Assembly: GCA_905160935.1 (NCBI GenBank)
Contig: CAJHZI010000514.1
Coordinates: 957,501 to 1,021,500, forward strand
Length of the DNA stretch: 64,000 bases
Direction of reading: 5' to 3'
From: Enchytraeus crypticus
Taxonomy: Eukaryota; Annelida; Clitellata; Enchytraeida; Enchytraeidae
The notes under the pieces were generated by a model. It did not search any database and was not told the origin of the DNA. It was given only the letters and a program-made list of their open reading frames with translations. Below are positions 13,521 to 60,728 of the stretch, one piece after another. Numbering within the stretch: the first letter of the stretch is position 1; every line of letters starts with the position of its first letter. A program made the translations under genes and the position numbers.

Positions 13521-16083
13521 CTATATATACTTGTATATATACATGTATGTATACAAGTATATATATCAATAAACATAAACCGTTACTTTTACATACGTCG
13601 TTATAGGATAACACACAGTAAATGTGAAACATAATTAAAATGTAAAATTGCTCAAGCAAAGAGGCCTTCAGTATGAGAAAGGAGCTACTAACCAAAAGTT
13701 TGAAGAAATTAACCCACGAAGTTGAAGATTGTAAAGACTTTAGTGTGGACTACGCTCCTCTACGGTTATGAAACACGGACGTTAAGAAAGGAGGATTTCC
13801 GGAAACTGGAAGCGTTCGAAATGTGAAGAATAATGGAAAGATCAAATGGACTGACAAAATTACTAATGGAGAAGTGCTAGATAGGGTCGGCGCTAATAGA
13901 CAATTGATAAATATCATAAGGAATAGAAAGAAGAGTTTGATGGGCCATTTTCTGTGAGGGGATGGTTCACTAAAACAGGTAATAGAAAGAAGAACAGAGG
14001 GAAAGAGGGTTACAGGACGACCGAAATTTAAGATGTTAAATGATTTGATAATTACCTACGTTGATAAGGAGAATGATAGAAATATGCAGAAGGTGCAAAA
14101 GATAGAAATATGAGAAGTTATATGCCATGGACCTGCTAACAGACAGTGCACTGAGAGAGAAACTACAAAGGCAGTAGCTGCAAGTTAATTTTAGAGCATT
14201 AAAGTAACTTACAAAGATATGTAATTATATTAACCATTTACACGGCATTCTAAGCGACAGTAAACAAATAGAGGTATTTGCTAGAGAGATAGACAGCCGG
14301 TCAATTATTCCATAAATTTGTATTTAAAGCAATCGATTTATGAATTGTTCAAAAGTCGCAGTGACCAGATATCACAGTTCAGCTTAAACTACATAAAACT
14401 CTGCTACATATATACAAAGCAAAGCCTTTCGTAATATTAATTCTTATTGCACAATTCCATTTCATCAGATTTGTAAGTGTTTAGAAAATTATAAATACCT
14501 TCAATATGTCTACAACCAGTTCGTCGTTGCAGGGAGGGAATTCAATTGGATGATTAGGATTGATGATGGCCTGCAGTTTCATCACCTGCATTTTGACATT
14601 CTCGAATGGTACTCGCCCATAGACGAGTAAATACAATATACAGCCTAGACTCCATACATCGCTCTTTGTGCTAATCTACAAGCAATTCAGTCAATCAATC
14701 AGTTAAATCACTTGATTAAGATGTCTACCTTGTGCTAATCTACAAGCAATTCAGTCAATCAATCAGTTAAATCACTTGATTAAGATGTCTACCTTGTGCT
14801 AATCTATAAGCTAACAATAACTTGATTACAATGGTTATTTAACGAAATTTAGTTTAATATCATAATTGAACATTTTCTGCAAAGTAGTCACGAAGACAGA
14901 TTTCGACCATGACACTGCTATACCAATTTTTGCTGTTAATAATAATAATAACAATAAGAACATGAGAACCAGCATTAACGCAGGCGACCAACGCGAAAAA
15001 CCCTTTCTGTGGCAGCGCCTGTCCATTGCACTCCAGCGCTTTAATGCTGTCTGCGTTCTTGGCACATTGGGGAATGCGGCTCCCAGAGTGTAGAGAAATT
15101 ATTGTAGACATTTCATTTTAATATTTCTTTTAAGTAAAGCCCTTCTTTTACCTTATTTTTAGCCCAGGGCCTATAAAGCCCAGAGCATTTACAATAATAA
15201 TAATAATGATAATTTACCTTGTGTTAATCTACAAGCAATTCAATCAATCAATCAGTTAAATCTCTTGATTATGACGCTTAACTTATGCTAATCAACAACA
15301 ATTCAATCAATTAAATCATTTGAATATTACGTTTATCTAATGCCAATCTACAAGCAATTCAATCAATCAATCAATTAAATCATTTGATTATGACGTAAAC
15401 TTACTTGTGCTAATCTACAAGCAATTCAATCAATCAGTTCAACCAATAAAATAGTTTGCTCAATTGATAATGTGGTAAAGAGAAAGCCTGCACATGTCAC
15501 TCTCTATGCTAAGCAACAAGAAGTTCAATCCATCTATCGGCTTAAACCACTTTTTGAAATGATTCTATACATACATGTATACATAATAAAGTATGAACTC
15601 ATTCACATCTTTTTAAATTATTGCAACTTGTGACGATAGTAAACAAAAATCTCTAACGTAAAATGTTATATTTCGTGAGCGGCTCCAGGATCATGAGCGA
15701 TGCTAGAAAGAAAGCGGAGGGAGGTCTTCGTGCAATAATTTAACTTAGAGCTCTATTACGCTTATTTTTGTGCTATAATGTCTCAGTCAGAGAAGCCTCG
15801 GCTGGGATTAAATCTCGTGGTCTCCAGTGTATCAGGCAAGTATGTTCACACTCAGCAGTGCAACTAGTGTCACTTTTGTTCTCTTTCTGGAATTTCTCTA
15901 AACCAATCCTATCCATGACAACACCCAGCATTGAAATCATTACACTAAATGACTCAGAGAGAACAGAGTATGAAGCGTTCTTCAGATACCCCGAAGACTT
16001 CAGTCAAACTCTCTAGTTCAGCTTCAACAAAACTCTACCATCCACTAAGCTATAGTATATAGTTATAGTGTATATATGTAGGC

Positions 16084-16155
<72 letters not shown>

Positions 16156-18460
16156 CTATAGTGTATATAGCATAAGCATCTATAAATATTCATCTGACCT
16201 TGATGTGAGGTTTGTATGTTCCATTCAGATCCCGCCCACCGTTGAGATCTATGACGGCCTCAGGGCTCATGTAGTTGAGTGTGCCGACCATCTGATCGCA
16301 CGTCACACTCGTCTTGTCTGCCTGGATCGACTTGGCGATGCCAAAGTCTATCAACTTCACCTGACCACATACCATTATAAAGTTTGCCGGCTTTAAGTCC
16401 GAGTGAACTATTCCTACACACAAATTACAGCAATATTATAGCAATATATAATAATATACTCATAGAAAATTAGACTTTCAAGCAAACTATTAAACAAGAG
16501 GCAAAATTGCATATTTCTCACGAATTGTAAGTAAATAATGAATGATGTTAATTTAACGAGGCCAAATTAACGATATATTCACATCCTACAAACAACGTCA
16601 GCCAATGGAAATTCTAGAACTTTACAGTGTATCTATTGACTCCAGCGCAAGAGTAACAACTACAGTTATCAGACGTCACATACATTCACAATATTTATTT
16701 GTAAAACGTTGTCCACATAATTAATTTAAAAATATAGCACTTTAAATATTCGTATAAATTAAATAGTGCTTCAGTGCCCTTCGAATGCAATTAACTATTG
16801 AAGTATTTTCACAATGAATTTAGAGACAGCAATTGCAAAAAATCTAATGATCAAATAACAAATTTGTTCAATATTAAAACGCAGTAAAGCTGTATATGGA
16901 TTTGTACATTATATTAACATGATGGCAACCGCGTTGAAGCTGTTCAAGTTCAGCTATAAGTAGGCTAACCTTCTCGGTGCAGTATGTGAACAGCTTGTAG
17001 CATCTCTATCCAGAAAGGTCTTACGAGAAGCCGTCGAATATTCATGTTGCTTCGTTTGACACGAAAATATTTAGCAAGATCCATGTCTCCTTTCTCCATT
17101 ACCACATATAACTTACTGCTGGCTTCATCAAACATACTGTACAAAAGAATAGCATATGTTTTACTAAATAAAATGTCGTCGTAAGCTTCTTAAGAATTAA
17201 CAATTTAATTAAACAATTAATTAAACATTTGTAATTTTACACATGCAATACTATTTTAGAGTAGTGTTTCTGCACAAACTATCAACAATTCTGTCAGAAA
17301 CAGCGATTGCATTTCTTATAATACCAATTAATTTATTGGCTGAACCAAAAAAGATTATGCTCATTGCTTAGGGTGTACCACTAGATCATTCTACCCAGCA
17401 ATGCAATCGCTTATTTAAATTCTGCAATGCAGTGCAACACGCACGTCAACACTGCTGCACACTTGGACAACCACATCTAAGATTAAGAATATTTACTAAC
17501 AAGATATTATTTGTCCGATTAACTGGCAAGAGTAACAATCAGTACTACACTTATTAAACTATTAATTGCAGCACAAAAATAGAAAAATACATACTAATCA
17601 TAAAGTTTCACAATTTCGTCATAATTCTGAAGTTTCTGCAGAAGATTGATCTCATTTCTAAAGCCATTAATAATTGACTCCTCAGCTTCATTCAGATCAA
17701 CACATTTTACGGCACAATCTATCCCGTCTTCACTTATCGCATGATACACCTGAAGAACAAAGAGCATACATATAAGATGTCAGCTAACGCCAACATTTCA
17801 CAGCAACCCGGCGATTAAAATAGTATTGAGAACAAAATCGACGTAGCGAAAGTATAAGTCAATTCACACATCACGAGGTTCTGCCACAGATGAACTGGGC
17901 TAGGAGACTAGAAACCCCAGCCCTGCTGCTGTACACTTGTGTTAACTTGCTCATTAAAGAGCAAATATAAGCCTAAAATGTTTATTCAATTACACCGGAG
18001 GCTTTGCGCTAGTTAGAACTGAAAAATCAACGAAACCTGTAGCTTGCAACTAAAATTTTTGATACAATATGGCTTTACATTGATCCAATGTCGAGTTTTC
18101 AAAATTTGTTATAGGTTGCTTGCAAAAAAACTTAACTTCATTATAATATTTTAGGTAGTCGCGAAGATTTGCAATACTAGTCCAGCCGCAATTTATATTT
18201 CATCATAAAAATATTGTAAAGAGAAAAATAAAAACCTTGTTGTTACAGAAAAATTTGGACGAGATTAGCTAGCACAAAAGTGCAGTTTTATTATCTATGC
18301 GAGTGTCGCAGCATTTATAGCATACAATTTCAACGTGCAAACTTCTCAAAGCTGGGTACGAGAAAAAGACTAGGCGTGTACAAACCTTGCTGGAGCCTCC
18401 TGTGCCAATCACTTTAATCAAGATGTATATAGCGCCATTGATAGAAATTGTAGTAGAGCC
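12233..18460 (-). CDS. TTK: TTK kinase-domain exons (coding exons 10-15)
   Basis: The domain opens with [19 protein letters not shown], equivalent to the ISVKG start of human TTK. Catalytic features: glycine loop GTGGSSK (802-808), Lys823 in CAVK, Glu841 in RNEI, catalytic HSDLKPAN (919-926; TTK has HSD instead of HRD), IDFG (937-940), activation segment [19 protein letters not shown], then [14 protein letters not shown] and [13 protein letters not shown]. All residues needed for activity are present, so this is an active kinase by sequence. One oddity is Cys931 in the loop after the catalytic Asn. Introns contain a mariner-like element, RTE debris and the acceptor array at 14661-15545. Confidence 0.96.
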
Positions 18461-21400
18461 CTGAAAACATCAACAATCGTGTATATACAAACAATAACAA
18501 CAACAACAACAGAATTAGAGTGCCTCTGTCGTCCGTGACAACATTGAGCACTATGGTACCAAATCGAATCAGATGAGCAGAGTATGAGGTCCAAAAACGG
18601 TGCAAGCCAAAATCCGGGAGTTCAGTCCGAGGAAGGGTACTAGTGGAATGGAGGTTTACGTGTTGGTCTCAGTTCCTGTGCAGTGGTTGAATAGGAGAGG
18701 TCAAAGAGAAAAGGAGCCATACACCTCTGAGTGCGAACTATGGCAAATAAAAAGCTTACAAAGTTTGTTACAGTAAATACTTCCGAACTCAACACAGCAA
18801 TATAAAGCGTTACAATTCTAAACTACTAAAAATGTTATGTTTATAAAATATATGTTTACTGTCAAAAGAGAGTCAACATTTGAAATAAATGATTATTAAA
18901 ATGTTCATTAATTCCAAGGCTCACTGACTATTTTGGTAACCGGTTCACAACGGCATAGCTGAACTCCTTCTAGGAATATGTTGCTTATTCCGTTTGAAAA
19001 TATTTACATCATTAAGGATCATTAGGTAATTTAAACTTATTTTAATCATTATGGCCTTAAATTGTTGTTAACCTAAACGATGCATTCATACTACAGACTT
19101 TATTGGGTCTCAAAACAAAAGTAAGAGATATATAACTGACTGTAAGTTAAATTTTGTTTACTGCTCCAATAATTAAGAGATTCAAATTAAATTTAACATG
19201 AAAAGACGTGCTTACACAAAAATTAAATAAATTTTAAGAACTTTAATTTCAAAATGAAACATCATAAATAGCAGCAATTATCTTCGTTAATCACTGAAAA
19301 TGAAAAGTCGTATCTACTGGTCTACTTAGCTAAAGTACCTCAATTAAAAATATCTACTATGGCAATCTGGGTTAGTCTGATATGGACATAATATCTGAGA
19401 GGTATGCCGATAGCAAACTAGATGATTGACAAATAGATAGACAAACAAACACACTCATCTGGAAAACATGCTACTTAGTCAATTGTAACCAATATTTAAA
19501 ATTCCACAATTCCTTCAACAATATTTTTAAAATTTAAAAATCAAAACACCAAAACAGACCTTAATGGGCACTTTCGTTTCAGTAGGCTTAAAAGAAGCAG
19601 CAATTGAGCGTGATGCAGAACTTTGCGAATCAGCATATCTTGAATTCGTTTGATTACAGTGGCTGTCAAGTATTGACGAACAAGTACCCACGTGTGCCTG
19701 TGGTACATCCATCTGCTGATCTCTCGACCTTTCGAGCAAGCGTGTAGGTTCAATAACCGTTTTTGCAGAATGAACAGGCAAAGGAATAGCAAAACCACCC
19801 CTCTCATCCAAATCCTTCTCCCTATCATGTTTCTTGTACACAATCATAGAGTCCATAGCCGTTAAACCAACATTACGATGAGAGTTTGATTCAGAATTCT
19901 TGTCTTTTAAGTTTTTAGTATTATTACCATATTCTGACATAATGGAATGATCTCCTGTAACACAGGCTTGTTCTTCCACTGGCAGAGACGTAGCACCGTC
20001 TACAGATAATTTATTAAAACAGTCAGATAGATCACAGTTCCTAGGCTGAGCACAGTTGTAACCATAAGAATTTTCATCAGAATTAGAGCGCGTGTTGGAG
20101 ACAAAACTCGACAGCTTTCGTTTGGAATCCCTTAGCCCCAACAGCTCGTAGCTGTATTCGGAGAGCTGCGGCGGACCTTCGATCTCATTCATAATATTCT
20201 GCTTTTCATTTCTCAAATCAACTGATCTGTCGCGATATTTTGTCGTCCCAGGGACCGGAATGCTTTCTCGTCTCAGAGCATCCTCAGAAGTCTTTAAAAC
20301 TGCACTACTTGTTGAAAGCTGCGGCGTAGCCTGTAAAAATTTATTGTCCAAAACTTTAGGAGTGAAATTTCTCCAATCTTTAGGATGTTTCTCTGTAGGT
20401 TGATTTGTTGAGATTAGCGTGGTGGAAGGAAGAAGTTTTAAGGAAGGGGTAAGAACTGCTGACGTATTTATGGAAGCAGAATTAGAAGTGTGTAATGGAA
20501 GTAGAGAACTCGCAATATTTGTTGATATTGGTCTCGCTCTCGATGAATCGCTCAGCGCATGATTACTGGGAGCATACGCTCCACATATCTTGCTAGCGGA
20601 TGATAAACGTGAATCAGTGCTTGAACCAGGCAATGCATTAGATGAAAAGCTATTTCCACCTTCATATCTCTTGTCAGTTTTGCTTCTATTGATATCAGAA
20701 CCTGAATGACAAAAAAGGTTTAACATAATTGCTTTAGCTACAGTACACATGAGAAGGTGTATACTAAAGTACATGCTCACAAGGAACTATAACTAGAATT
20801 ACTAGATTAGAAGAAAACATAAAACACATTAGAACTTTCTAGAAGACATCGGAGAACGTCATATGTTTAAGACAATTATGCTGGATTCAAGTGTGAAGTT
20901 TTAGACATGTATCAAATAAGTACATTTCCAGAACAAAAATGAGCAAAATCTGCTAATTTTTTACCCCATCCATTCAAACTCATCCATTGTTCATAACATC
21001 GCTCTCTTTCTCTATGTCTCTGTCTCTCCCTATACCGATAAGTTTTGCAACAGGTCACTTTACTTTGTTTTTCTTTATCCTATGCATTTCACTTCATCAT
21101 ATCTATGTATACATGCATTAAACACATGATCAAATTATAATTATCAAACATTCCTAGTCTCCATCTTAGTCTACATTTTCAAATCAATTATCTCCCTTAT
21201 ATAATTTTCTCCCTTATCATCTCCCTTAGAACACCAACTACTCAACTTTTCCATTTTAAACCTATTTTGCTACCCATCCATACCAATATTCACTAGTTCG
21301 TCAGTTGTAATTTAGGAAAATCAGTACTAATCGCCTCCAATCTTTTTCACATTTCCACTGCTCCCAGACAAAAAAACACAAATCATATTAAAGAACTCAC

Positions 21401-24400
21401 CTGTTAAGAGTGACTTGCTATTTGATGAGTTACTCTCTAGTGAGTCATTTTCTGCCATAGCCATCTGTTGAGAGGCTGGAACCCTCATAGCACCGACGCG
21501 GTAGCTTGATCTGTCAAACGCAGATTCAAAACTGAGAACAGACTTGCATGATAAACAGGAGCATATGGGTTTAAATTCCAGTCAGATCATCTGTGTCAGC
21601 ATCCTCACGGTATAGAAAAAGACGTTAAACTTGCTTTAATTTACCATCATTTAATTAAACACAATTATATATTTCCTTTTCTAATCATGATTCCGATCAG
21701 AAACTGGCTCATCTCTCATCCATTCTAGACACGGTTTATTCCTGGTTTTGCGCTAACCGTCTTGCTGTTAATCCCTCCAAAACTGAATACCTTTTAATTG
21801 GCACTTCTTTGCAAAGAAGTAAAATTACCAATAACTCTGTTAATTTTCAGAATCTTGCTCTTTCACCTTCTCGATCTGTCAAAAACCTTGGAGTCATATT
21901 TGATGAAAATCTTGACTTTAAATCCCATATCTCTTCTGTTTGTCGCGCTTCTTTCTTTCAGATTCGTCAGATTAGGCAAATACGTCGATCCCTTACTAGA
22001 AATTCAGCCACTATCCTTGCTAATTCTATAGTTCATTCAAAGCTCGACTACTGTAATTCATTATTACATGGGCTGCCTACTTCTTCTCTCAATCGTTTGC
22101 AGCACGTCCAAAATTCTCTTGCACGTGTTGTTTGTAAGTCCTCTCGACTCAATTTCGCTCTCTTTCTCTTCTTCGCAGTCTTCACTGGCTCCCTGTTAAT
22201 CAATGCATAAAATATAAAATAGCTCTATTAACTTTCAAAACTCTGCAATTTGGCAAGCCTTCTTACTTATCTGAAATTCTTCTTCCCTATCGCCCCCTCA
22301 AGTACACTTCGCTCCACTGATGCCAATCTTCTCTCAGTTTCAAATATTCTCACGTCATTGGGCAGACGTTCATTTTCTTACGCAGCACCCACAATCTGGA
22401 ACTCTTTACCTGCTAATCTTCGCTCTTGTGTTTCTCTTTCAACATTCTCTAGCAAGCTTAAGACTTACCTTTTCCCACCATAGACATAATCAATCTACCT
22501 TGACCATTTTTTGATCACCGAACTGGCTTTCGTTTAGAACCTTACTTCTCCTCAGCACATTTCTTTCGCAGATTGGTCTGGGTGAATTGATCTGTAGTGA
22601 TATGTGCTGTTGGGGACGTCCCTGACATCATCCCTGGATGAGGAAACGGACGTTAAACCTTTATTATTATTATTATTATTATTATTAAACTTTAAAAAAA
22701 CTTTTAAAAGAGCTTAAAAACGTTAATTTTACAATTCAGTAACATGTTTCAATGCACTTACATCAGTTGTAGAATATTTTACCATCAGGTTAAATAACCC
22801 TACCACACATTATTCTGCCAATAAGATAAGTGTGTACACTAAACAATTTTCATCAAAGAAAGACTTAGTTTATGTAGAAAGTACTTGATCAAAAGTTTAT
22901 GTAGAATGTACTTGATCAGAAGTTTATGTAGAATGTAATTGATCAGAAGTTTATGTAGAATGTACTTGATCAGAAGTTTATGTAGAATGTACCTGATCAG
23001 AAGTTTATGTAGAATGTAATTGATCAGAAGTTTATGTAGAATGTACCTGATCAGAAGATTATGTAGAATGTACTTGATCAGAAGTTTATGTAGAATGTAC
23101 TTGATCAGTAGTTTATGCAGAATGTACTTGATCAGTAGTTTATGCAGAATGTACTTTATCAGAAGTTTATGTAGAATGTAATTGATCAGAAGTTTATGTA
23201 GAATGTAATTGATCAGTAGTTTATGTAGAATGTACTCGATCAGAAGTTTATGTAGAATGTACTTGATCAGTAGTTTATCTAGTATGTACTTGATCAGTAG
23301 TTTATGTAGAATGTACTTGATCATTCAACTATCAATTGGTTTGATCGACAAAAGGGAAAATGATATTATAAATACCTGGAATAAAAATTACAATAACAAA
23401 TATAACTAGAAAAAAATACCTATAACAATACCTGCAATAAAATGACCTTTATCGCAAATGCCCAGAATGCCTCTAAATATAGCAACAACATTCACACCAA
23501 TCAAAATAATAATATTCGAATATAAGAATATAAGAATAACAATATAAGAATATTCGACAAGACAGATACTGTCCAGCAAGACTAACAATATGAGACTATT
23601 AGAATAACAATATAAGAATATAACAATATTAGAATATAACAATATAACAATACAAGGTAACAATATATGAATATTCAACGAGACACATACTGTCCAGCAA
23701 GACTGGAGATAGACCCACCGGCAGCCACTGAACGACTGGCTAAACCCCCCGACCCTGCTGCTCTACACAGCTCCGTTAGACTGCCGCTCTGGTTATGTGA
23801 TGACCGAAGACTTGGCTCAGATGCACTAGCCAGACAGTCTGTAGAATAATGGTGGCTCAACTTTCCTGCCGAAGACTTAGACAATCCACTTGACGCCGAT
23901 CTGTAAAATGCATAAACAAATACTGCAAATTATTATTGATAGTAGTTGCTATCTAACGTACAGTAGAAAAATTCATTCACAAGACAATTCAAAAAGAGTA
24001 ATCTATATAACATCAATAGGATTCCCAGAATACACGTATATTTTATACTATGATACTGCTACTATAATGCAGTAGTTAGTAGTCTACAGTACAATGCAAT
24101 GAAGATTGTATAAACAAACTCAATAAATATATCCATTGTATACGATTTTTGTATGAAAATAATTTGAAAAATAATTTAGTTGAGTTAGAGACCAACAACT
24201 ATTTAAAAATAATTTAATCGAGTAGGGACACATCCAATATGCAAGATTAAGTTTAATTACCTTTTAAAAAAAATTCAAGCCAGACACTAAAGGTGTGATA
24301 AAAATTACAAATACAAATACATACGCATCTTCAGAAGTCTGCTGCAGTTTTGACAGTTTTACGTCGTTACTCAATTTCTGACTGGTTTCAGTTTTAAAAT

Positions 24401-30970: not shown

Positions 30971-31346
30971 AGTTTTTATAATTTTTATCTTCTTTTATTT
31001 TATTTTTTATTTTATTTTCAGAACAATGTCCATATAGAAATTGTATGACATAAGCATGATATATAACATATACGAATAACATAAAAATAAGGAAGAAAAA
31101 CACTAACAGTCATTTTCCGGAAGTGGCAACGCTCCTCTACTTTATTTCCTGATTTATATTGTGATAAATATTAGATTAATTCGTTAATTTCGGATTATTG
31201 GATTGCATCACTAAGTCCGTTAGGACTAAGCCATCATCTAAACCTGTCAGCGATCAGATTTGTATTCTTAATTTTTCTATAGTGAGGCTAATTACTTGTA
31301 ATAGGTTTATTATCCATTACACACGTGTGATTGAAGTACTCCTATT

Positions 31347-32437
31347 ATGGTTAAGGTGTCGACTAAGATGGAGCTGAATTGGGTTTCGTGCGATGTATGC
31401 AAGAGATGGGATATCTTCGACAATGTCTCAGAGGTATTAGGCGTAGAGACTTTTGATGCGGCTAAGCTGGACTCATTTAGCTATGTATGCAGACAATGTG
31501 TGTTAGATAAAAAGTTCCAGGAACTTGAGGAAAAAGTACAATTGGCAGGAGTGAAAGAAGTAAACGAGGAAGTTAAGAAACTAAAAAAGAATGTAACGGA
31601 GTGTTTGGCTCTGAAGCAAGCCTTGTCTGGACTGGAGACAACTTCAGCAGCTCTGACTGAATTGAAAAAGGCTTTGGGTGATGTGAAGGAGATAAGGGAT
31701 GGATTAGAGGAGATTGGACATTTAAAGAATAGATTAATGGAATTGAAGAAGCCAAAGAACATTTCGAAAGAGGTTGTTGAATTAAAGAAACTTAAGAGGG
31801 CTGTAGAGAAAGACCTCCAGGAGGCTAAGAAGGAAGTGGAAGATCTGTCTGGAATTAAAAGAGGTTTAGACAACAATGCGACAATTGCTGGGGATCTACA
31901 GAAAGATGTTGGAAAGGTAGAAGAATGGAGGACGATAGTAAGCAAAAATTCTAAACAGGTAAAGCTAGTATCAGAGCAACTCGATATAGAGCAAAGAAAG
32001 CTGAATGTAATTGTACATGGCGTTAAAGAAAGCTTAACAGGAGACAATGAGGAAAGTGATAGGGAGAAGGTTAACAATATTTTTAGTAAAGGGCTCAACA
32101 TGAAGACCAAGCATGACTTAAAGGTATCCAGGATAGGCAAGTTGAATGAGGATAACGAGAGGCCTAGGCTTATTAAGCTTGAACTAAGCTCAGTTGAAGG
32201 AAAGGTAGAGGTTCTAAAGAGAGCTAAGCAACTCCGAGAATCTGAGGACTACAAGAAGATTTTCATAGTGCCTGACCTCACTAAGAAATAACAGTTAATG
32301 GACAAAGAACTTAGGGATAAGGTTAAAGAATTTAGGTCAGAAGGAACAAAAAATGTGGTAATTAGCAAAGGAAAAGTAGTAAAAAACGTAGATGGAAAAC
32401 AGGTAGTGCTATACATTCCGAGTATAGAGAAGAAATA
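31347..32437 (+). pseudogene. CR1 LINE ORF1 (PHD-like zinc finger plus coiled coil), nonsense mutation
   Basis: The product starts with a Cys-rich segment, CDVCKRWDIFDN and later YVCRQC, resembling the PHD-like finger of CR1 ORF1 proteins. A long Lys/Glu/Leu coiled coil follows (about residues 50-210), then an RNA-binding-like segment containing LNVIVHGVKESLTGDNEESD and KVSRIGKL. A TAA at 32289-32291 interrupts the frame. The same frame then continues for about 48 codons to a second stop at 32435-32437, so the stop is likely a point mutation rather than the natural end. Role: RNA-binding chaperone of the retrotransposon particle. Confidence 0.8.
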
Positions 32438-32446
32438 GATAAATGT

Positions 32447-35316
32447 ATGTATATTAGTCAAAGTAGATTAGATCAATATGGTAGCTCTAATGAGGTTATA
32501 AAATCAATTGATAAGTTAGACTGTATGTTTTGTAATGCTAGGAGTATTGTTAATAAACGTAATGAATTAGAATTATTGGTAGAGCAGAATAATATTAGTA
32601 TCATTGGCATCACTGAGACTTGATGGAATAGTTCAATAGACAACTCTGAAATAGAATTAGAAGGTTACACAATTTTTAGAAAAGATAGAATCAGTACTGT
32701 TAAAACCAGAGGAGGAAGGGTTCTATTGTATATTAAGGATCACATAAATGTAGTGCAGAGAGATGACATATGTGATACCAAATTTCCTGAAAGCCTATTT
32801 TGTACCATAGAGTGTAAGGACGAAAAATCACTCCTAGGCATATGTTATAGATCCCCTGATAGCGCAGTTGATAATAACTTAGGGTTATTCAATTTGTTGG
32901 AACAAGCTTGTAGTGATTGTAAAAATTGTGTGATATTAGGTGATTTCAACTACAAGGAATTAGTATAGAATAATTTAGATTCATTATCAAATGACCATCC
33001 ATTAATAATCTGTATAAATGATAACTTCATGTTTCAGTTAGTGAACCGAGTCAAAATGGAAATTTTTTAGATCTATTATTCAGCTCAGACGAAAATATTG
33101 TAGAGAATATAACGGTTAGAGAACCTTTAGGAACTAGTGATCAAAGCACGATAGAATTTCAATTAGTCACTAATAAAATAAAAACTGAGAAAGAGAGTAA
33201 AGTATTGAATTTTCACAAAGCTAACTATCAAGCTATAATTGCAGCTGCTCAACTAAAGGGTTGGGACAACATATCCTTGAATAATGTTAATGATATATGG
33301 TCAATTTTGAAGAATGATATTTTAAAAATCAGAAATAAATTGCTACCTTTAACATATAGGTCAAAAGTAAAATGCAAATGGGCAACTAAATTATGCAAAA
33401 AGTTAAGGAGAGCAAAGAGACGAGCTTGGCATAAATATATAAAATCGGGTAGAAATTTGTCATATTACAATAAGTATAAGGAGAAATTAAGCAAGTCTAC
33501 TAAGGCAAATGATGAGGCAAGGAAACAGTTTGAGATTAAATTAGCTAATAATGTAAAAAATGACAATAAAAGTTTCTTTGCCTATGTTAGAAATAAAGAG
33601 AAGAACACAGCTAAAGTAGGTCCATTGCGGGATGCCGATGGTATCATTATCACTGATGATGAGCTCACAGCAAACATGTTCAATGACTATTTCAGCAGTG
33701 TTTTTACAGTAGAAAATCTAGATAATATTCCAATAGCAGATAGAATATTTACAGGTCTAGAATCAGAATGTTTAAGTGAATTAGTCATTCATAAAGAAAT
33801 AGTTTTAAAGAAACTTAGTGAAATTAACTGTAATAAAAGTCCAGTTTCAGATGATCTTCATCCTAAGTTACTATTTGAGCTGAGACACCAATTAGTAGGT
33901 CCCCTTACTAAATTGTTCAATCTATCGCTCGAAACTGGAATTGTACCTCAAGACTATAAAGAGGCCAGGGTGTCTCCCTTGTTCAAGAAAGGTAGAAGAG
34001 ACAATCCTGAGAACTATAGACCAGTTAGTTTGACTAGTATCATAGGTAAGGTGTTTGAGAGCATTATTAAGGATAGTTTAGTTAAACATTTAAATAGTTA
34101 TGAATTAATAAGAAATAGTCAACATGGATTTACCAGCAATAGATCTTGTCTAACAAACATTTTGAGCTTTATGGAATCTGTCAATTCATAAAGAAATAGT
34201 TTTAAAGAAACACTGCATGTTGATAACAGTAATCCAGTAGACATTGTCTATTTGGATTTTGCAAAGGCGTTTGATAAAGTGCCTTACGAGAGATTGTTTT
34301 GTAAACTTGAAGCTCATGGAGTTACTGGCGCTGTCCTGAATTGGATTAGAAGTTGGTTAACCTCCAGGAGACAAAAAGTTTGCATTTCAAATCATGACTC
34401 GGCTTGGCGCAATGTCACTAGTGGGGTTCCACAGGGTTCAGTGTTGGGTCCAATTTTATTTTTGGTTTACATTAATGACTTAGACAACAGCATAATATCC
34501 AAAATGAGTAAGTTTGCTGATGATACCAAATTATGTAAAAATATAGGTAATCTAGAAGATATGTTATCACTTCAGAGAGATTTAGAGAGTTTGCATAATT
34601 GGGCAACTACCTGGCAGATGAGCTTCAATGTTGATAAATGTACAATTATGCATGTAGGTCACAATAATAGTTGCAATCAATATAAACTTGGTAAAGCAGA
34701 ACTAAAATCATCTATTAAAGAAAAAGATCTAGGTGTCATTATTGATAATACCCTAAAATTTTCAGAGCAGTGTAAATCAGCAACAAATTGTGCTAATCAC
34801 ACTTTAGGTTTAATTAGGAGAACTATAAAAAGTCGTAATAAGGATGTAATAGTGAAATTATATAAAGCATCAGTAAGACCTAAATTAGAATATTGCGTAC
34901 AAGCGTGGAGATCTTTTTTAAGGAAGGATGTGAAGTGTATGGAAAGAGTTCAAAGGAGAGCAACTAGAATGATTGCTGAATGTAGAGGTCAAAACTATGA
35001 ATCTAGGTTAGATGTATTAGGTCTAATTAGTTTAGAAGATAGACATACCAGAGGGGATTTAATTCAAGTGTATAAAATAGTTAAAGGTTTTGACAATATC
35101 GAATGTGAAGAATTTTTCAAACTATCAGATTATGCTAGAACAAGAGGGCATAGATTCAAAATAATAAAGGTTAGATCCAGATTAGAAGTTAGAAGAAACT
35201 TTTTCAGTCAGAGAGTTGTCAATATATGGAACAGGTTACCTCAGTATGTAGTAGAGGCAGAGTCAGTGAATGCTTTTAAGAATAGGCTAGATAAGTATTG
35301 GAAAGAAATACATTGA
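32447..35316 (+). pseudogene. CR1 LINE ORF2 (endonuclease and reverse transcriptase), broken
   Basis: The endonuclease part shows CNARSIVNKRNELELLVEQN, IIGITET, GICYRSP and ILGDFNY, as in APE-type nucleases of CR1. The reverse transcriptase shows SPLFKKGRRDNPENYRPVSL, DFAKAFDKVPYERL, SGVPQGSVLGPILFLVYIND and the catalytic FADDTK. The C-terminus ends with FFSQRVVNIWNRLP and VNAFKNRLDKYW. Lesions: TGA at 32621-32623, TAG at 32966-32968, a frameshift near 33040, and an inserted block with TAA at 34189-34191. The point stops sit where family members carry Trp, fitting G-to-A decay. Confidence 0.88.
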
Positions 35317-48984: not shown

Positions 48985-49685
48985 TATATTAAGAAAGATA
49001 TCGATAAATTAGATAGGGTACAAGCCAGAGCAACAATTAAAAAGGCTGGTATTTGACTGTCAAAAACTTAGTTATGAGAATAGATTAAAATTCGTAGGAT
49101 TAACCTCTTTAAGTGAGAGAAGAATTAGAGGAGATTTAATAGAAGTTTTTAAGATACTTAAAGGCTTCAGCAAAGTTAACCATAGTATTTGGTTTAATTT
49201 ATCAAACTACAGAAACACAAGGGGGCATATTTATAAACTTAGTAAATTCAGAAGCAGACTAGATTTAAGGAAATTTTTCTTTAGTCAGAGAGTTATAAAT
49301 GCTTAGAATAGTTTGTCAAGCGAAGTTGTGGAAGCAGAATCAGTGAATGTTTTTAAAAATAAATATGATAAAGAACATGTAAATTAGATGCTAATTGCAT
49401 GTGTCAGTTTTAGATGCTAATTGCATATTCAGTGTTAGTATGATTTGATTTATATTAATTGGTTTTAGTTAAGAACCTGATGAGTCCTAAACAAGCATAT
49501 AATTGCTTCTCAAAGATATGGAATTATAATTATAATTCTTTATTCTATGTTGCTTCCTGACTCTGTAATGCTATGTTATAAAGGTTATACTGGTAAAATG
49601 TAATTTAACTTGTTTTGAAGTTTTTACATCTGGTAGCACTTGGAAATCAGAATTAATATATTTGTTAAATAAATAAATAAAACTG
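48985..49685 (+). pseudogene. CR1-type LINE, 3' fragment
   Basis: Read in one frame it gives LSYENRLKFVGLTSLSERRI, RGDLIEVFKILKGF, LSNYRNTRGHIYKL, FFFSQRVINA, stop, NSLSSEVVEAESVNVFKNKY, clearly related to the C-terminus of the ORF2 at 32447-35316 but a different subfamily. There are two in-frame stops. A 3' UTR follows and ends TTAAATAAATAAATAAAAC. It lies between the divergent MPV17 and ANKRD13 starts, so it may sit in or near their promoters. Confidence 0.85.
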
Positions 49686-50498: not shown

Positions 50499-50538
<40 letters not shown>

Positions 50539-50620
50539 TCTCTCTCTCTTCAGTGCACTGCCAAGTGGCAGGTTCAAGGTACATATTCATAATCAAAGTC
50601 TTCTTATATATATATATTAT

Positions 50621-50685
<65 letters not shown>

Positions 50686-52592
50686 CCATATCACTATCCA
50701 TAACAAAGTGACAAGATTTAACAAAGTAACTAGAAATTAAGTATCATGTGCAATTTGATCAGAAAGATTAATATGAATTTATAAATTCAAAATCCAGTAA
50801 GTTTTGCTTATAGCTTACCAATACCTGAATTAGCAGTTTCATGAATTTTAATAACTAATTAGTGATTCCTGACCTTACAATAACATTACGTCAAAATACA
50901 CTAGAGTAATTGCTAATTATGGTATTGCATACAATTATGAAGTATAAACTATAAACATTTCTTATGTGTACCAATCATATTGCTGCAGCATGATGTAGAC
51001 TTTTTTTAAAACGGCAACTATTAAGTTGGTCTACAATCTTAAGAATATACATAATATAATATATTAATATTAAGCATATTTGACAATGAACTTTGCCTAT
51101 CGCTGCAATGATAAAAAAAATAACACCTATAAAATATCCATATCTGCACTTGGCAAACGAAATTATGAGAACACGCTATGTCAAATTAGGAATAACTAGA
51201 TTAGGATTAGTTACGTACTTAGGTTAGGTTTGGATTAGTTTAAATTCGCTATTTGTTGGATTCCATGATTGTACATGTATAAACTTAACACCAGTGTCAG
51301 AGTCAAATTCAAAATCAAATTTTCAAATTAAAAAAAATGATTTTGAAGGTGATTTTGATGTTTGAAATTTACAAAAGCAGCCAAATTTTGATTTTGAAAT
51401 CAAAATCATTTTTGTGAAATGATTTCAAAATGAAAACCGTGATTTTGATTTTATTTTGTGATTTTAAATCAAATGATTTGATATTATTACCCAAAACTGT
51501 ATGTATAAATATATATGTGTGTGGGCATGTGTCTATGTATATATGTATGTATTTAGGTACATACGTACGTATGTATGTATTGATAAATTTGATAAATTTA
51601 TAGTTGATTGACTGCATGAATGACTATATGAGCAATCAATCAAGCAACCACTCTGTATATGGATGGCTTCAGGTTTACGATGTAGAAAAAATTGATCCAA
51701 GAGGCAGAACACCGCTTCATCTAGCTATTGCACTGGGGCACCTCGAGAGCGTTAAGGTTCTGCTGCTTCATAATGCTAATGCTGACGTGGAAAGCAGCAA
51801 ATACTGGACAGGTTATTTAGCTAAATATTATATTTACTTTACTGGCATCTTGTTATTTATAAGCCATAGCTTACTGGAACAAGAGTACTTTTTCAGGCAT
51901 TTGACATGTGTGTAACAATAGGAACAAAATTAATTGCCATGTATTACTGCCTTTTGCTCAATGGCATTGAAGCTTTTGGACAGTACCTTTGGTAGGCTAC
52001 TAGGTTCTTCTGGTCTATTTGGTCGGCCATAATAAAAATAGTACAATCCTTAATAGGGAATCCACAATAAATGTTCTATTTGCTAACTTGGTAGTAAGCT
52101 TGCTTAATGGTAGTATATATATAGGCCACTGAATAATTGAGAATTCCATTTAATTATGCAAAATAGTCTGCTGACCTGTAATGATCGTCATTAGTAGTGT
52201 TTATTGTAAGATTAACATTTTTAGGAACTCTTCTTTTATACGATTAAAGTTAGTTGCCGCAGGGATTGGCTTCATATAGACCCATCTAGCAGGCACAATT
52301 ACCTAACCTCTGAAATGTCTAAAATCTGAAATGTTGAATGTTTACACCTGAAATTATTTCAAGTATATTGTTAGGGATTTGATAGAGCTTATTGTTGGGT
52401 ATTTGATAGATGAATGTTTGGACAGTGTGACTCTACTTGTTGATGTTTGGATTGTATGTTGTCACAGCTGTTCAGGAAGCCATTGCGACGGGAGACCCTG
52501 AGCTCGTTCAGATTTGTCTTCAGTACAGAGAGGCTCGTAGGAACACAGACCGTATTGCCGGGGTGCCCGGGCTTCTGAGAAGACTTACTGAG
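49750..52592 (+). CDS. ANKRD13: ANKRD13 ankyrin-repeat exons 1-3
   Basis: Exon 1 (30 residues) supplies [20 protein letters not shown]. Exon 2 has the cleanest ankyrin repeat, [20 protein letters not shown]. Exon 3 gives [20 protein letters not shown]. The start ATG was chosen because it opens a frame that aligns from residue 1 with the family and ends at a GT donor. Intron 1 contains a repeat-C copy, a palindrome and TA arrays. Confidence 0.94.
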
Positions 52593-55500
52593 GTTCCTTT
52601 CACGAATCACTCATATTCTACATGTATATTAATAGAACTGCTAATATCCCCTTGTTGTGTCCGGGTTGTTTGAAGAATTGACCAACTGGTGACTGCACGT
52701 GTCGGAGAAGGCGACTAAAGCACTAAGATCCAAGCCATCGTCAGAAAGGGCATTCGGTTGGTGAGCGCCTAGCTTCCAGAATTGCTACAAAAAATTTAAA
52801 CGAATAGAAAAGTCTCAAATAGGGGATTGACTGATGGATGATATGATGTAGGACAGAGATGATTTGAGTCAGTCTGTTTGTAGTTAAACTAGGATTCAAG
52901 GGAAGATGATGATGATGAATAGAACCGCTTTATGGATCAAATTACTATCGTTATGCTACAATGAACAATATATGTTCAGATAGTCGTGTATTCTGTAACA
53001 TATACTTGTGTCCCTTGAAGACAAACTTTTGTTTTTACAACCGATACTGCAACTAGGATCTCTGCAAATCTAGGCCTTGTTTTCTTGAACACAACCACCT
53101 TATACACACTTAACTATCTCCAATATTGCGATTTGAATAATGACATACACATATACAGTATGTGACTATTTTTTAAGATATTCAACATTTAGATCTAGCA
53201 AATAGCATTAATAAATGTAAAGCATTTTTGTATATGTTTGGTTTTATCTGATATAGACGGCGGGATTAGCGCACTTGGTTTAGTTGCGCGTCAGTTATCG
53301 AAGTTAAGCTGCATCGACCTCGGTTAGTACTCTGTGGGTGACCACTTTGGAAGACCGAGTATAGGTAAAAGCTTAGGAAGGAAAAAAATCCCAGGGTGAT
53401 GGAAGGGGTTATTCTTAAATCTGCGCCGGCTGCAATTGATGCGCCATCAAAAGGCAACAATTACTAATAACCATGGAGTGGAAGGAGGAAATGGGTCTTA
53501 AAACAAGCATCCGTGCTTCCTGACCCAGTGTGCCATTATGTTATGTTATGTTATATTGGTTTTATTTTATATTGGCTTTATCTTGATATTGTTTTTATGA
53601 TTATTATTATTTATTTGATTATTTCATTATTAGCCTTGTTGATTGTGAGTTTGTAAAGTTGATATGTTCTTTGAATATATTTGATTCTTTTCATAGGCTC
53701 CTGATTTCTATGTTGAAATGAAATGGGAATTCACGAGCTGGGGTGAGTATTTAGTGAGTTACTAAATTTAAGTTTCAGTCTATTATATCCATTATTTTTG
53801 TACAATGGTCTATTCACTAAAGTCTACGGATAATAGCTGATGTTATACTTTAAGTAATGCTCCATCAAATAGTCACATTTTTTCTGTAGTAATTGAACAT
53901 ATTCTTTTTTTAATGTACTTTGTTTCAATTTATTTGTTAGTAGGCAAATGGTTAATGAGCCTATGTTTCATTAGAATTGTAATATTAAATAAGTGCATTT
54001 GGCTGTTAAATAATTCACATTGCTGTCAGTTGTTTCATTTAGAATGCTGCAACATTTGAACCATTTTGTTACATAGTCTAGGAGTTATTCAAAACAACCT
54101 ACAATAGAAGCACATTTCATTATGTTTATTATTTCAATATAATATATTAAGTTTATTTAAAAATTATGTTTATTATTTCAATATAAAATATTAATATATT
54201 TAGCACATTTCATTATTTTATTATGTTTTTTCATTTCATTTCATTTATTATCATTTTATTTCACATTTCATATCATAAGTGAAGGGTTCAATTCCAGTAC
54301 TCTCGCATAACTTACATGCTATTCGAGCAGGAAGTTGATATTAAATTTGGCGTTACCCTTTTTTCACCTGCTAACAGTTTAGTGAAATTCAAGCATTACT
54401 GATTTACTGTGTGGAAGCTAAAAGGAAACTGCTATGTTTCACAAAGAATTTATGAATTAAGAATTAAAAATTTATGCTTATTAATGCCTTTGTGTGTTGG
54501 TGGTGTATGTTGTAGTTCCATTGGTTTCTCGCATGTGTCCAAGCGATACTTATAAAGTTTGGAAATCTGGTGAGTCATTTATATGAACACTAATATCTAG
54601 GATTAACTAAATCTAAAGAAAGTTTCTCTTCTTAGCATTTATTTTGTTGTCAAGTTTTTTTTTAATGTTTAGTTTTCCCTGTCACAGGGTAAATACATGT
54701 GCAGCTTCTTGTACATTGCATATTGCATGGTATTACATTTTCTGGCAGTTGTTATAATAATCCATTGGTGCATCATAATCTTCCAAATCATATGACGCGT
54801 TGAGTGACTAATTTTGACATTTCGGCTGCATTGATAAACGATAAGAAAAATAAGTTATACACGTATATAGATATACTAGATGTTGTTGACACAACTACTA
54901 ACAATTATCCAGATTTCTTGATCACGTGATACTCTAATGTGTACACAGGTTCTAATGTCCGAATCGACACTACACTGCTGGGGTTTAACAATATGAGCTG
55001 GCAAAGAGGCAGTAGGAGCTATATCTTCAAAGGGCAGGGTAAGTTTATTACATTGGTAGCTTTTCTTAGCTGTAAAACTAAGTTTAACATCTGTTTCAGT
55101 GTAACTAGTAATACAGTCTGAGCCAGTCTACCTGAGACTCCAACTGGTGGCCTCCCGCTTTTCTAGCAAGCATACTGTTCTTATTTCTGGTTAAATTTCT
55201 GTTACAATGTACCATTTTTGTGTCAGTGGTGCGTCATTATTCTGCAGCGACATTCACATAACAATATCATGTCTTGTAATCATCCTGTGGCTGCAACCAG
55301 CCCTAGGATGTTCACCTGACGTTACACTGTTGTGTCAATGTCGCTGCAGAATACTCAATAAAACGCAGTGTTAGAGAAACGTTATAGAATTATATTCAAA
55401 AATGGTGCAATTGTTAAATCAAAGCTTTAGAAATTCAGCACCGAAATGAATCATACAATTCTGTGCGACCCGGTTTATTGAAAACAATTATTAGTACTCA

Positions 55501-58500
55501 ATCTACTGAGCTGTTGGCGTGAATAGTGATGGTTCAAACTCACAGCAGGTTATCTATGAGTAGTTGTTATTGCTATATTAACAGATAGCGTAGCGACAGT
55601 GATGGAGATAGACCACGACTCACAGCAGGTTATCTATGAGCAATTGTTATTGCTATATTAACAGATAACATAGCGACAGTGATGGAGATAGACCACGACT
55701 CACAGCAGGTTATCTATGAGCAGTTGTTATTGCTATATAAACAGATAACGTAGCGACAGTGATGGAGATAGATCACGCCTCTCAACAGGTTATCACAGAG
55801 CAAGTCAGAGTCACTCCAGAGGCTTGTGACGTCTCTTATCTGCGACCTTCTGAGGACGCTGTCGCTACTCGTCTTACCTCTCCCATAGTAACAACTTACC
55901 TTGACACAGATAAAATATCATTTGAAAGGTTTGCTTCTTACCTCTCCTAACAACTTACCTTGAATTGATAAAATATCTTTTGAATAGTTTGCTTCTTTCC
56001 TCTCCCACAGTAACAACTTATCTTGATATAATTAAATTATCATTTGAAAGGTTTGCGTCTTACCTGTGCCTTCCTAACAACTTATCTTGATACAGATAAA
56101 ATATCATTTGAAAAGTTTGCATCTATCCTCCTAACAAGCGTCTTGCCTCTCGCTAACTATCAACTTCAGTGACTTTAATAACTTGTAAAAGCTGGTAAAG
56201 CTAAGGTTAGCGTCAGTTTCCTCACTCGAAAGCGATGTATGTATTGATCTTTGATCTATTATTTTTATTCTATTGATCTTTGTTTTATTATGCCTTTATA
56301 TCATTTTATGATCCTACATAAATTGGCGTCATCATATGATGATGCATGTACATCATTGCATTGTTGTGCTGATAAAGTATCATTTGAAAAGTTTGCATCT
56401 TTCCATAGTAACATATTACCTTGACACAACAGAAATATTAGTTTTTAAAATATCCTTTTTATTAATTAAGTAGTTAGATTTAAATTAATTTACTTCATGT
56501 TTGTACTTAAGTTACAAACACTTAGCCCTTCTTTACACTGGTTATTATTTTTAATACTTGTTTATCTATTGTATGAATTATGCAATTTTTATAGAATCAT
56601 TATCATTCATAAATTTGCTTCTCCATATTATTATGTATGGACATTTTGTTTGCATTATCATACTTTTAAATCTTAATATTCTAGTACTTTTATCTTATGA
56701 TAATTTCACTATTGTGTAGCCTTATATAGTCATACTTATACAGAATTATGTTATATATTAAACTTTGCAGTTTTGTTTTAACAAGGTTTTACAGCTTAAG
56801 TTCTTATAGCTTCAAATTCAGTATTTTACAACGTCAAATTGTGCTTGTGATTTAGCAGCTAGTATGTAATTGGAATATTTAATTTTGCTCAAAAGGCACA
56901 AAATAGGACTTAATAATAGTTACGATGCAATACTAGTAATTCTACTCTTGTAATAGTATCAGTAATAGTACGATCTCTTATTGCTTATGTTTTTATGACC
57001 TTAGTCTTTGTCTGACTTTGGATCAATAGGTACCAGGCTAAAATCTGCTGCTCCTTTGGTCACTGACATGCTTTCTGAACAGGGAATTGACGTTGAACTT
57101 AGCTTTAGCCTTCAGCCTTTACCTTATCACACCTTTAAATTTGCTTCATAGTGAGTGTTGTTGTATTGTAGAAGCAAATCTGGCATGTGGGGCTGGAAAA
57201 ACGATAAAACTGAAACTGTTAATGGTTATAGCTGTAAGGTACGTGTAAGATAAGTTACTCGTGCACTGCAGTCATCACCTGCTTATTTATAAAAGTTTGC
57301 TACTTTTTAATTCTAAATTTGATGCATTACAGTTTTACTGTTGACCAGATTTTTGGTTTCAATAGTTGCAGCTAATGTAAAGTATTATGGTAACATATTT
57401 AGGTCACTGAAATGAACTATGATAACTTCAGCGTTTTATTGGTGATACTTTTCTATTGGAATAAGATGTATGCTTCTAAAGTATTCTTCTAAGATATTTT
57501 TTATGCATTTTATAACTTGCTCTTTGCAATTTGTCAGGATATAGGCATCTTTAACTTTATTCTGAAAGTTTTGAATCATTAGTTATTCTATAATTTTTCT
57601 AAGGTTTTGCATTAGTTATTCCGTAATTTTTCTAAGGTTTTCTGTGCGTCCAATGTAAACCTCGTGACGAAATCGAGAACAGAACATCTGACGGAGCAAG
57701 ACAAGAAGCAGAGCAAGAAGACGATGAGGAACCCGCTCGAGTCATTCCTTGGAGTGGTGGAAGGAGAGGAGAAAGTTCACAAAGCTGCTGCTGGCAACAA
57801 CGCTGCTGAGGCTGATGTATGTTTCTCACTAGTAGTCTTAGAGTTTATGAGTCATGAGTCATTGACTCAGAGTTAGGTTAACGAGTCATGAGTCATTGAC
57901 TCGAGTTAGGTTAACGAGTCATGAGTCATTGACTCAGAGTTAGGTTAACGAGTCATGAGTCATTGACTCAGAGCTAGGTATTGACTCAGAGTTAGGTTAA
58001 CGAGTCATGAGTCATTGACTCAGAGCTAGGTTGACGAGTCATGAGTCATTGACTCAGAGCTAGGTTAACGAGTCATGAGTCATTGACTCAGAGCTAGGTT
58101 AACGAGTCATGAGTCATTGACTCAGAGCTAGGTTAGCGAGTCATGAGTCATTGGCTCAGAGGCTCATGGCCAAGTTAATGATATTTGCCTTCATTTTTAT
58201 TTAATGCTAAAATTGTCTACTCTTCCATACATAGTATTTCTGTTAGTTAATTTCGTCTACGTTCATTAAATGTTGCATTATGATGCATTTGCATTTATGT
58301 AATTTGTGTTGCATACTCACTAAAACTATAATATTTATCACAATCTGTATTTCTTTACTGTCAGTGCATGATGTACTGATTAATCTAATATTTCTATTTA
58401 ACAAACAAAAACACACCCATCTGACTTTATGTGCTGTTAATTTTTTATTTAACAAACTTAAGTTAACAAATATGATATGATATTTAATCTGACTAACGTG

Positions 58501-60728
58501 CTGGAGTTTTTGGGTTCGACTTTTAAAAATTATCGTTAGGAGACTAACTCATCAGATCCCTTGTCATTATGTGAGTTATTGCTTTTGCACAGAATTCAAA
58601 TGAAATTCTAGAAAGTCACAGATTAATTATTTTTGTTTACTATTTCTAATGGCATTTTAGGAGAAAATCTGTAACTATCCTTCACTATGAAGTTATCCAT
58701 GCTATAGGCTAAAACCAATTTTATCTGCAGTTTCCTTACTTGTCTATGACCAGGCAAGTCTTAAATTTGAGCTATTTACCTACTGAACAGCAGTCGGAAG
58801 CCTAATAGCTCTGCCGTGTCTGTTACCATTGTATCAAGGATGTGACGCTTTTATCCCGTAACCCGTGTCACATTACACCCGAGGAATACTTTGACCCAGA
58901 CTTTGACCTTGGGGCTAGGGACATTGGTCGACCGATCGAGCAGACAACCAAGACGCAGAAGTTCAAGGCCCAGCTGTGGTTGTGTGAGGAGTTTCCTCTC
59001 TCTCTACAAGAACAAGTTTCTCCAATCATCGATCTCATGTCTGCGTCAAACGTCCACTTCCGCAAGCTGAAGGACTTCATCACGCTTCAACTGCCGTCGG
59101 GGTTTCCTGTTAAAATCGGTGGGTGACATTCGTACGTTATAGTTGAACTTTATGGTCAGGTTTAGTCTGAACAGTGACTCTTGTGGAATATTGCTTCAAT
59201 TGTACTACTACATTTAGCAAATTATTACATAGTTAAACTTTCTTTGATTACTGTAAAGAAAGACAGCTTGTACAAACATTAATTTGTACTAGCCTATATA
59301 TTTTTAATTCACGCAACCAATTTTGGCTGAATTATATATGTTATTGTTTAGTTGTGTATTGTATTTGAAACATTATTTTCGTTAATTATATTATTTTGGT
59401 TAACGTTATTTAAAACGTTAAGCAAAATATGTATTTTAATATGGTTAAGTAATATTAATGCTCTAAAGCCATTAATATAGTTAAGCAATATTGAAGTTAT
59501 TTTGAAGCATTAATTTCTATTCCTGTTGACTGTATTATTATATTGTTTCAGAAATACCATTATTTCACGTATTGAACGCACGTATTACATTTGGTAACAT
59601 CTTTGCGTCAGTGTCAGAAGCGCCCGGTGTTATACTGCTGAGAGACAACGACAAGATGATGTGCACGGTAGACTCCATGGTGTTCGATGCTCCTGCCACG
59701 TACAGCGTTAGAGGTTTGTCTCTGAGCTGTGATGCTATTATTATCCTATCCTTTGTCGTCCTCATGTCTGCTATTTTTGGTGTGGTTGACTTGCTGTTAG
59801 TTATTGCGAATATGAGAGTGATTGGACTAAGAGACGTCGAGATGCTGGATATAGAAGGTAGATGTGTCACACTTGCTGTTGGACTTAGTAAAGTTAGTTA
59901 ATATTTGCAAGTAAGTTGTAAGTTTAACTTAAAGTGTTATAGTTTGATTAATTGATTGATTTTATGTTAAGAGAAGGTCAGTATGCACGACTACGAGAGG
60001 AGGATGATCAGCTGTTACAGTTTGATTGATTGATTGATTGATTGTATGTTAGGTGAAGGTCAGTATGCACGACTAAGAGAGGAGGATGATCAGCTGTTAC
60101 ATTAATTGATTGATTTTGATGATTTAAGAGAAGGTCAGTATGCACGACTACGAGAGGAGGATGATCAGCTGTTACAGTTTGATTGATTGATTGATTGATT
60201 GTATGTTAGGTGAAGGTCAGTATGCACGACTAAGAGAGGAGGATGATCAGCTGTTACGGTTTGATTGATTGATTGATTGATTCAATGATTCATTGATTGA
60301 TTGATTGTATGTTAGGAGAAGGTCAGTATGCACGACTAAGGGAGGAGGATGATCAGCTGTTACAGTTTGCTATACAACAGAGTTTACTAGAGAGTGGAAC
60401 TGAAAATGATCAGGTACTACACTTTGATTTGTTATTCAGGACCCAAAGTCGCTAGAGTATATACGGAACATATGGAGATTGCATTTTACTTATGTGCCAC
60501 TTGTCAGTAGATAATGACAAAACTTGAGTTTATTTTAGTTCTATCCCCTGATAGCACATTCATTTTTAGATGCTTGTAAAAATATAATAATGAGCCTTGA
60601 GTCACTCTAATGAGGATCTCGTAATGGATGGTCTAACAGTGTGGCTGCTGAAAAATAATTTTCTGATGGAAAGACCTTGAATGACTTACACTGTGACATT
60701 TAAGTTTTGCTTCCAACATATACATGTA

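Follow-up and report, generated by a model that had tools for sequence, protein, structure and literature searches.

The original paper on 'mirages' is said to be that of Canestro and others in 2002. In amphioxus, this name is used for tandem duplications of intron-exon borders: according to two reports, the units are 10-160 bp long and are found at both kinds of boundary, many copies carry splice signals, regular splicing is not disturbed, the length of the arrays is unstable and a model of intron gain has been proposed (PMC3087553, PMC3902484). Similar repeats are mentioned for PGBD5. The mirages of amphioxus are the closest system to the arrays described here, which are located in a stretch of 64,000 nucleotides of DNA from Enchytraeus crypticus (the window). 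The likeness to the mirages as reported (PMC3087553, PMC3902484) is close: the arrays in the window span a splice site and part of the exon at acceptors and at a donor, and AG or GT is present in many but not all copies. Some copies may also have been homogenised mutually, as the signs at site 2, and partly at site 4, suggest. The units at five sites (33, 64, 64, ~78 and 80 bp) are inside the reported range. Unlike the amphioxus mirages, our arrays are known from the DNA of one assembly. The pattern is real, recurrent and common here, and it is of an already known kind.

Duplicated borders have also been described in other systems. In potato, an intron was gained from a duplicated border (PMC4974935). 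As in the Rogers model and in this gain in potato RdRp, tandem duplication in the window brings splice signals to new places; unlike in gains of the Rogers type, the spare copies are inside an existing intron beside the copied junction, and the proteins read on normally. A new intron of the Rogers type was considered for the window and rejected, because each unit combines intron and exon sequence from a single existing junction and the homology of the proteins to their families continues across the introns. At none of the five sites was there a new intron between two exonic copies of an AGGT segment. The variable internal tandem repeats in human segmental duplications are likewise minisatellites at exon-intron boundaries and are able to alter splicing; in contrast to our arrays from a single assembly, the human repeats are length differences between paralogues and have transcript support (PMC2812944). 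In UBC, tandem dual-specific AGGT sites are described (PMC10809524), and in our arrays too splice sites are in tandem and some copies have AGGT (TTK, CACAAGGTA). However, the UBC repeats are coding monomers, whereas the copies in the window are intronic and lead to stops where they were read. Among the papers listed in our searches of the open-licence literature, we noticed neither a genome-wide tally of mirages nor a report under this name outside lancelets. A search for related loci gave 75 pattern stretches in genome contigs and 20 in viral contigs, of which none was confirmed; a plasmid search gave no lead and Rfam gave 0 matches.

Border-spanning arrays in TTK and ANKRD13

The genome that holds the window is 524 Mb in 802 contigs. 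The window contains genes for Deltex, TTK, an aspartyl/asparaginyl hydroxylase, an Mpv17 relative and ANKRD13, with reverse-transcriptase elements in between. For example, a LINE-like element at 31335-35316 has a long frame and a reverse transcriptase (RVT_1, E=5.2e-25), and pieces related to this element are present at 49012-49361. We built gene models by hand for ANKRD13, for TTK with its kinase part, and for portions of Deltex and the hydroxylase. The ANKRD13 model has 12 exons in one open frame of 508 codons, plus 5 codons after the exon 6 acceptor was placed by homology (this raised the Pfam score from 308 to 319.8 bits), and its protein matches Pfam ANKRD13_C with E=5.4e-91. The kinase part of TTK is on the minus strand and matches human TTK with E=3.9e-83; the acceptor of its SDVW exon was also set by homology (ISTKSDVW here, ISPKSDVW in human TTK). 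Among the 50 window junctions in the models, AG is present at 25 of 25 acceptors and GT at 25 of 25 donors.

A preliminary description of this DNA claimed that, at several places in TTK and ANKRD13, a splice site and some exon bases had been amplified into the adjacent intron. As listed in Table 1, we confirmed five such arrays, one in TTK and four in ANKRD13. Four of them are at acceptors and one is at a donor, and the unit comprises the used splice site with 5 to ~59 exon bases. Two further places had been called weak: the one at 57592-57645 was borne out as the two-copy exon 8 acceptor, and at 23560-23583 the repeat is real and the exon is putative. For each of the six sites, 500 dinucleotide shuffles of the intron beside it were scored and none reached the real value; chance similarity is therefore ruled out.

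Table 1 Positions of the arrays, their used splice sites and related features
Feature	Position	Strand	Description
Site 1, TTK 3' splice-site array	14666..14811	-	acceptor 14676/14675 (SDVW exon) with 10-11 exon bases; 64-bp unit
Site 1, older diverged copies of the TTK 64-bp unit	15218..15545	-	
Dispersed element between the two TTK array blocks	14847..14960	-	82% over 114 bp to 6493-6606, inverted
Site 2, ANKRD13 exon 6 acceptor array	55526..55803	+	used acceptor 55744/55745; 80-bp unit of 22 intron and 58 exon bases
Site 3, ANKRD13 exon 6 donor array	55870..56124	+	used donor 55928/55929; 64-bp unit
Site 4, ANKRD13 exon 12 acceptor array	59944..60375	+	used acceptor 60315/60316; ~78-bp unit, 157-bp higher order
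Site 5, ANKRD13 exon 8 acceptor	57577..57641	+	used acceptor 57636/57637; two copies of a 33-bp unit, 5 exon bases
Site 6, end of putative TTK exon	23536..23704	-	two copies (43/48) of a 47-48 bp stretch; putative donor
Contrast array without exon sequence	57849..58161	+	34-bp unit, intronic, begins ~33 bp past the exon 8 donor
(TTGA)n tracts upstream of acceptors (examples)	window 60280-60315, L022, L031, L033, L035, L043	sense strand	

The copy numbers given here include the used copy. Site 1 has 8 copies in its two blocks, degraded ones being counted. Because the dispersed element sits between these blocks, the array probably predates that insertion. Site 2 has 3 copies and 1 partial copy. 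At site 3, the unit consists of ~59 exon bases and ~5 intron bases and is present in 4 copies, with a degenerate one near 56371. Site 4 has 5 copies with ~54 exon bases in the unit; it forms a 157-bp dimer, and copies 1 and 3 are identical across 55 bases. Contact with a junction is absent in 13 of the 18 gene-body arrays, four of the 18 having been extended or added by hand. One minisatellite in the window (22867-23323; 27-bp unit, 17 copies) is open over 161 codons on the minus strand.

The sites differ in their signs of homogenisation. In the exon part of site 2, the intronic copies match each other at 56 of 58 bases and the used exon at only 50 of 58, as in a drifting array. Such homogenisation, in which the boundary copy is spared, is partly seen at site 4 and is absent at TTK, where, unlike at site 2, the used copy is the same as the neighbouring copy over 55 bases. 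We rejected the idea that the intronic copies are fossils of an ancestral exon 6, because a copy-like version gains just 1.2 bits (321.0 versus 319.8). At just two of the five sites, direct repeats flank the duplicated segments at their outer ends: AGTTTG (6 bp) at site 4 and GTTTT (5 bp) at site 5; in both, one end is intronic and the other exonic, as judged from flanks read by eye. When site 4 (60300-60420) was searched for elsewhere in the genome, all of the matches listed, at least five, were inside its own array. In the self-comparison of the window with low complexity masked, none of the five arrays had a partner at more than 1.5 kb. By eye, the ANKRD13 intron at 56190-56231 and a segment across a myosin exon end (L023, about 2807-2850) have almost the same 40 bases (AGCTGGTAAAGCTAAGGTTA.CGTCAGTTTCCTCACTCGAA), which are probably a dispersed repeat.

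Border copies in the window and in further genes

Arrays were defined in the window by a period of at least 15 and a score of at least 60. They cover 9.6% of the introns and 1.7% of the exons of the window genes; coverage is 8.4% in gene bodies and 4.4% outside genes, the latter with hand-extended arrays. Five of the 50 junctions are inside arrays, and rotation of the arrays within each gene gives a mean of 4.1-5.4 (P 0.41-0.65). Before junctions were corrected and arrays extended by hand, 4 were observed versus 3.6-5.0 by rotation. If the 18 gene arrays are placed at random, 3.73 of them are expected to touch a junction, versus 5 observed (P=0.31). The preliminary description proposed a comparison of exon edges with random intron positions, and named a rate no higher at the edges as the outcome that speaks against a process specific to borders. 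With periods up to 6 masked, this test gave hits at 3 of 50 junctions for 60 exon bases (3.3-6.1 expected), at 5 of 50 for 30+30 bases (3.5-6.1 expected) and at 4-5 of 50 for 10+30 bases (3.0-4.9 expected). Thus, the rate at exon edges within the window (3-5/50) is not higher than that at random intron positions (3.0-6.1 expected), and this outcome is the one named. Because the window provides only five events, a two-fold border effect could escape notice (ratio 0.3-2.9).

From the same genome, 145 junctions were added, which gives a pooled total of 193. Sixty-two exons were taken from 81 myosin-head matches (35 in set 1 and 27 in set 2). The third set consists of curated exons with 13 acceptors and 10 donors and supersedes an earlier, incomplete form (9 acceptors, 6 donors). 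Its genes were recognised from their translations alone, and we take them to be KDM1B-like, WD40 (WDR26-like) and FN3-type genes. This set is not blind, because it was chosen from genes already noticed in the coding-score scan described below, and three of its border arrays were known beforehand. The boundaries of set 2 were fixed ahead of the repeat test, with one upstream copy (L032) already visible. An ambiguous acceptor (L028), a set 2 donor (L037), three donors of the third set and two window junctions at a short intron were left out.

In the main test, a 40-nt segment centred on the junction was compared with 250 nt of adjacent intron, with a score of at least 18; periods up to 6 were unmasked in this test, in the third set and its control, and in the (TTGA)2 counts given below. 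A border-spanning copy was found at 5 of 48 junctions in the window, 11 of 69 in myosin set 1, 8 of 53 in myosin set 2 and 6 of 23 in the third set. Control positions in introns, 150 nt or more away from any known exon, gave 7.4%, 8.9% and 7.0% for the first three sets (8.0% overall), and 11.9% for the third set; four exons of that set were added to its list after this control had been drawn. The pooled count is 30 of 193 versus 16.3 expected, a ratio of 1.84 (CI 1.24-2.62; Poisson P=0.0015), in which junctions within one gene and in the paralogous myosin genes are non-independent. The recurrence across genes that had been claimed from TTK and ANKRD13 extends to the myosin, KDM1B-like and WD40 genes of the same genome, where further border-spanning copies are present. 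Composition alone was ruled out, because junction queries reach a score of at least 20 against other introns in just 0-0.8%. In 15 arbitrarily chosen stretches (143 kb), G+C is 0.355, as against about 0.41 in lancelets, and minisatellites make up 6.8%. A coding-score scan of random stretches gave 35 putative exons with 64 edges, of which 5 reached a score of at least 20 versus 5.9 expected; by eye, some of these exons are transposon-like or low-complexity frames.

One of the further arrays has an unusual form. In the WD40 gene at L015:3571-4640 (stretch C400:100001-110000), the exon end and donor are followed by nine downstream copies, each with (TTG)n and CAG before it and GTAGG after it, and each copy therefore resembles a short cassette exon complete with acceptor and donor. 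This array is a natural test case for the published mirage model of exon/intron gain.

We consider it likely that the arrays are minisatellites of the mirage type, namely tandem duplications that chanced to straddle borders in a minisatellite-dense genome. Slippage or microhomology-mediated duplication would copy some tens to 160 bp and would be blind to splicing. Only the copy that adjoins the rest of the exon would keep the message readable and remain in use; the spare copies would turn into intron, where the arrays could expand and drift. Selection would then hold the used copy fixed, so that border duplications would be recognisable for longer than other intronic ones, and this should produce a modest apparent excess at borders. 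In a simple model, which was not fitted, the detectable time increases 1.4-fold when half of the sites of one copy are frozen and 2.0-fold when all of them are. The pooled ratio falls between these predictions, and a half or fully frozen copy can explain it under this model. Because the pooled excess has the size expected from a frozen copy, neither mutation directed to borders nor selection for arrays would be necessary. The abundance of minisatellites in the arbitrary stretches and in the gene introns supports this explanation, as does the absence of enrichment at the window junctions; the limitation of microhomology to two of the five sites is a point against it. The preliminary description reasoned that ordinary minisatellites would not be expected to gather around splice sites. 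This reasoning loses its force if, as we infer, a duplication that straddles a border necessarily leaves its spares in the intron. Its proposal of a mechanism or selection at borders is partly supported: the pattern recurs in other genes, and a frozen copy can account for the modest pooled excess.

Acceptors, donors and (TTGA)n tracts

A frozen copy does not account for every feature of the border copies. In the first three sets (the window and myosin sets 1 and 2; 170 junctions), 17 of 85 acceptors and 7 of 85 donors had a junction-centred match. In the 30+30 test, in which periods up to 6 were masked, the counts were 20 of 85 versus 7 of 85 (Fisher P=0.011), and among all 193 junctions the main test gave 21 of 98 versus 9 of 95 (Fisher P=0.028). 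Moreover, the density of intronic duplications climbs toward acceptors, from 6% at -300 to 20-22% at -60 to -20. A frozen copy alone fails to explain this rise, which occurs where little is frozen, and the acceptor-donor contrast is also beyond it. Of 86 acceptors, 11 have a sense (TTGA)2 tract in front of them, and none of 86 donors has one behind it (P=0.0007); among random intron windows the share is 2.9-7.4%. Matches were found at 7 of the 11 acceptors with the TTGA motif in the first three sets, versus 10 of the 74 without it. The (TTGA)n tracts before acceptors may serve as the pyrimidine/branch-point region and may seed slippage. The rise toward acceptors, the acceptor-donor contrast and the tracts, like the acceptor result of set 2 given below, speak for a cause that is local to 3' splice sites.

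There is a small chance that tandem duplication really does target exon borders, or that selection retains it there, perhaps at acceptors with (TTGA)n, and that about one junction in six has tandem spares. In its mutational form, this would be a process aimed at 3' splice sites, in which (TTGA)n or T-rich tracts seed slippage and the AG and the start of the exon are carried along. The 17 of 85 acceptors against a background of 8%, the higher rate at acceptors with the motif and the restriction of sense tracts to acceptors all argue for such a process. The idea about acceptors came post hoc from the arrays of set 1 and had been put on record by the time set 2 was retrieved; in the test first in use, the acceptors of set 2 then gave 5 of 27 versus 1.35 expected (P=0.0098). 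However, the result was weaker in the later test (4/27), and the predicted gap between acceptors and donors failed in set 2, where donors gave 3 of 26, or 4 of 26 in the later test. When set 2 and the third set are taken together, acceptors (8/40) and donors (6/36) have no clear contrast (Fisher P=0.77). For the first three sets, the cluster bootstrap interval of the acceptor-donor difference spans zero (-0.005 to 0.236), and the window acceptors alone are within chance (4/24 versus a control of 9.8%, P=0.2). We therefore regard an aimed process as unlikely, and the preference for acceptors as a hint that is unsettled.

Spare splice sites and their possible consequences

Splice signals are retained in many, but not all, copies of the window arrays. 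The scores given here come from a matrix made from the window's own junctions, an earlier version of which was used for sites 3-5. Selection might retain arrays of spare sites to regulate or buffer splicing, the spares being decoy, poison or back-up sites. Several spares indeed score as high as the used site: at site 1, four of the seven intronic acceptors score 9.6-10.2 (used, 9.6), and at site 2 both full copies score 6.5 (used, 5.6). The spare acceptors of site 4 score 5.3, 9.6, 1.9 and 9.6 (used, 9.4) and that of site 5 scores 7.3 (used, 7.9). Furthermore, translation from each spare acceptor examined, of which six belong to site 1, two to site 2 and four to site 4, meets a stop after 4-29 residues. 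In contrast, other spares have partly decayed: the donors at site 3 score 2.4, 9.0 and 4.7 versus 9.0 for the used one, the remaining acceptors at site 1 score 6.1, 6.0 and 0.1, and at site 4 the AG is missing from its exact place in 2 of the 4 spare copies. At site 2, the exon part of the spare copies is no better kept than the intron part, since 50 of 58 and 20-21 of 22 bases, respectively, are identical to the used copy. The amphioxus mirages are also reported not to disturb splicing (PMC3087553, PMC3902484). Selection for spare sites is thus improbable as the cause of the arrays.

Inflation or collapse of copy numbers through mis-assembly is very improbable. The copies mostly differ (65-97% identity at sites 2 and 3), the TTK array contains an inserted element and the contigs are up to 3 Mb long. 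On the other side, the copy numbers are those of the assembly, the TTK copy in use matches the neighbouring copy at all of 55 bases, two site 4 copies are identical, and for amphioxus an aberrant assembly of one mirage in the draft genome is reported (PMC3087553).

Chance duplication across borders, with selection that keeps the used copy, is the explanation that we prefer. The data also provide a calibrated null: before a border-specific process is claimed, the density of arrays within those very introns has to be matched. If about 15% of junctions have tandem spares and the genes work, the genome offers a natural experiment in spliceosomal choice among near-identical sites, and the spares would be a standing source of intron/exon gain, as has been proposed for mirages. 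If duplication is directed to borders or kept there, it would keep decoy sites, new introns and cassette exons in constant supply, and mirages would be a general feature beyond lancelets.
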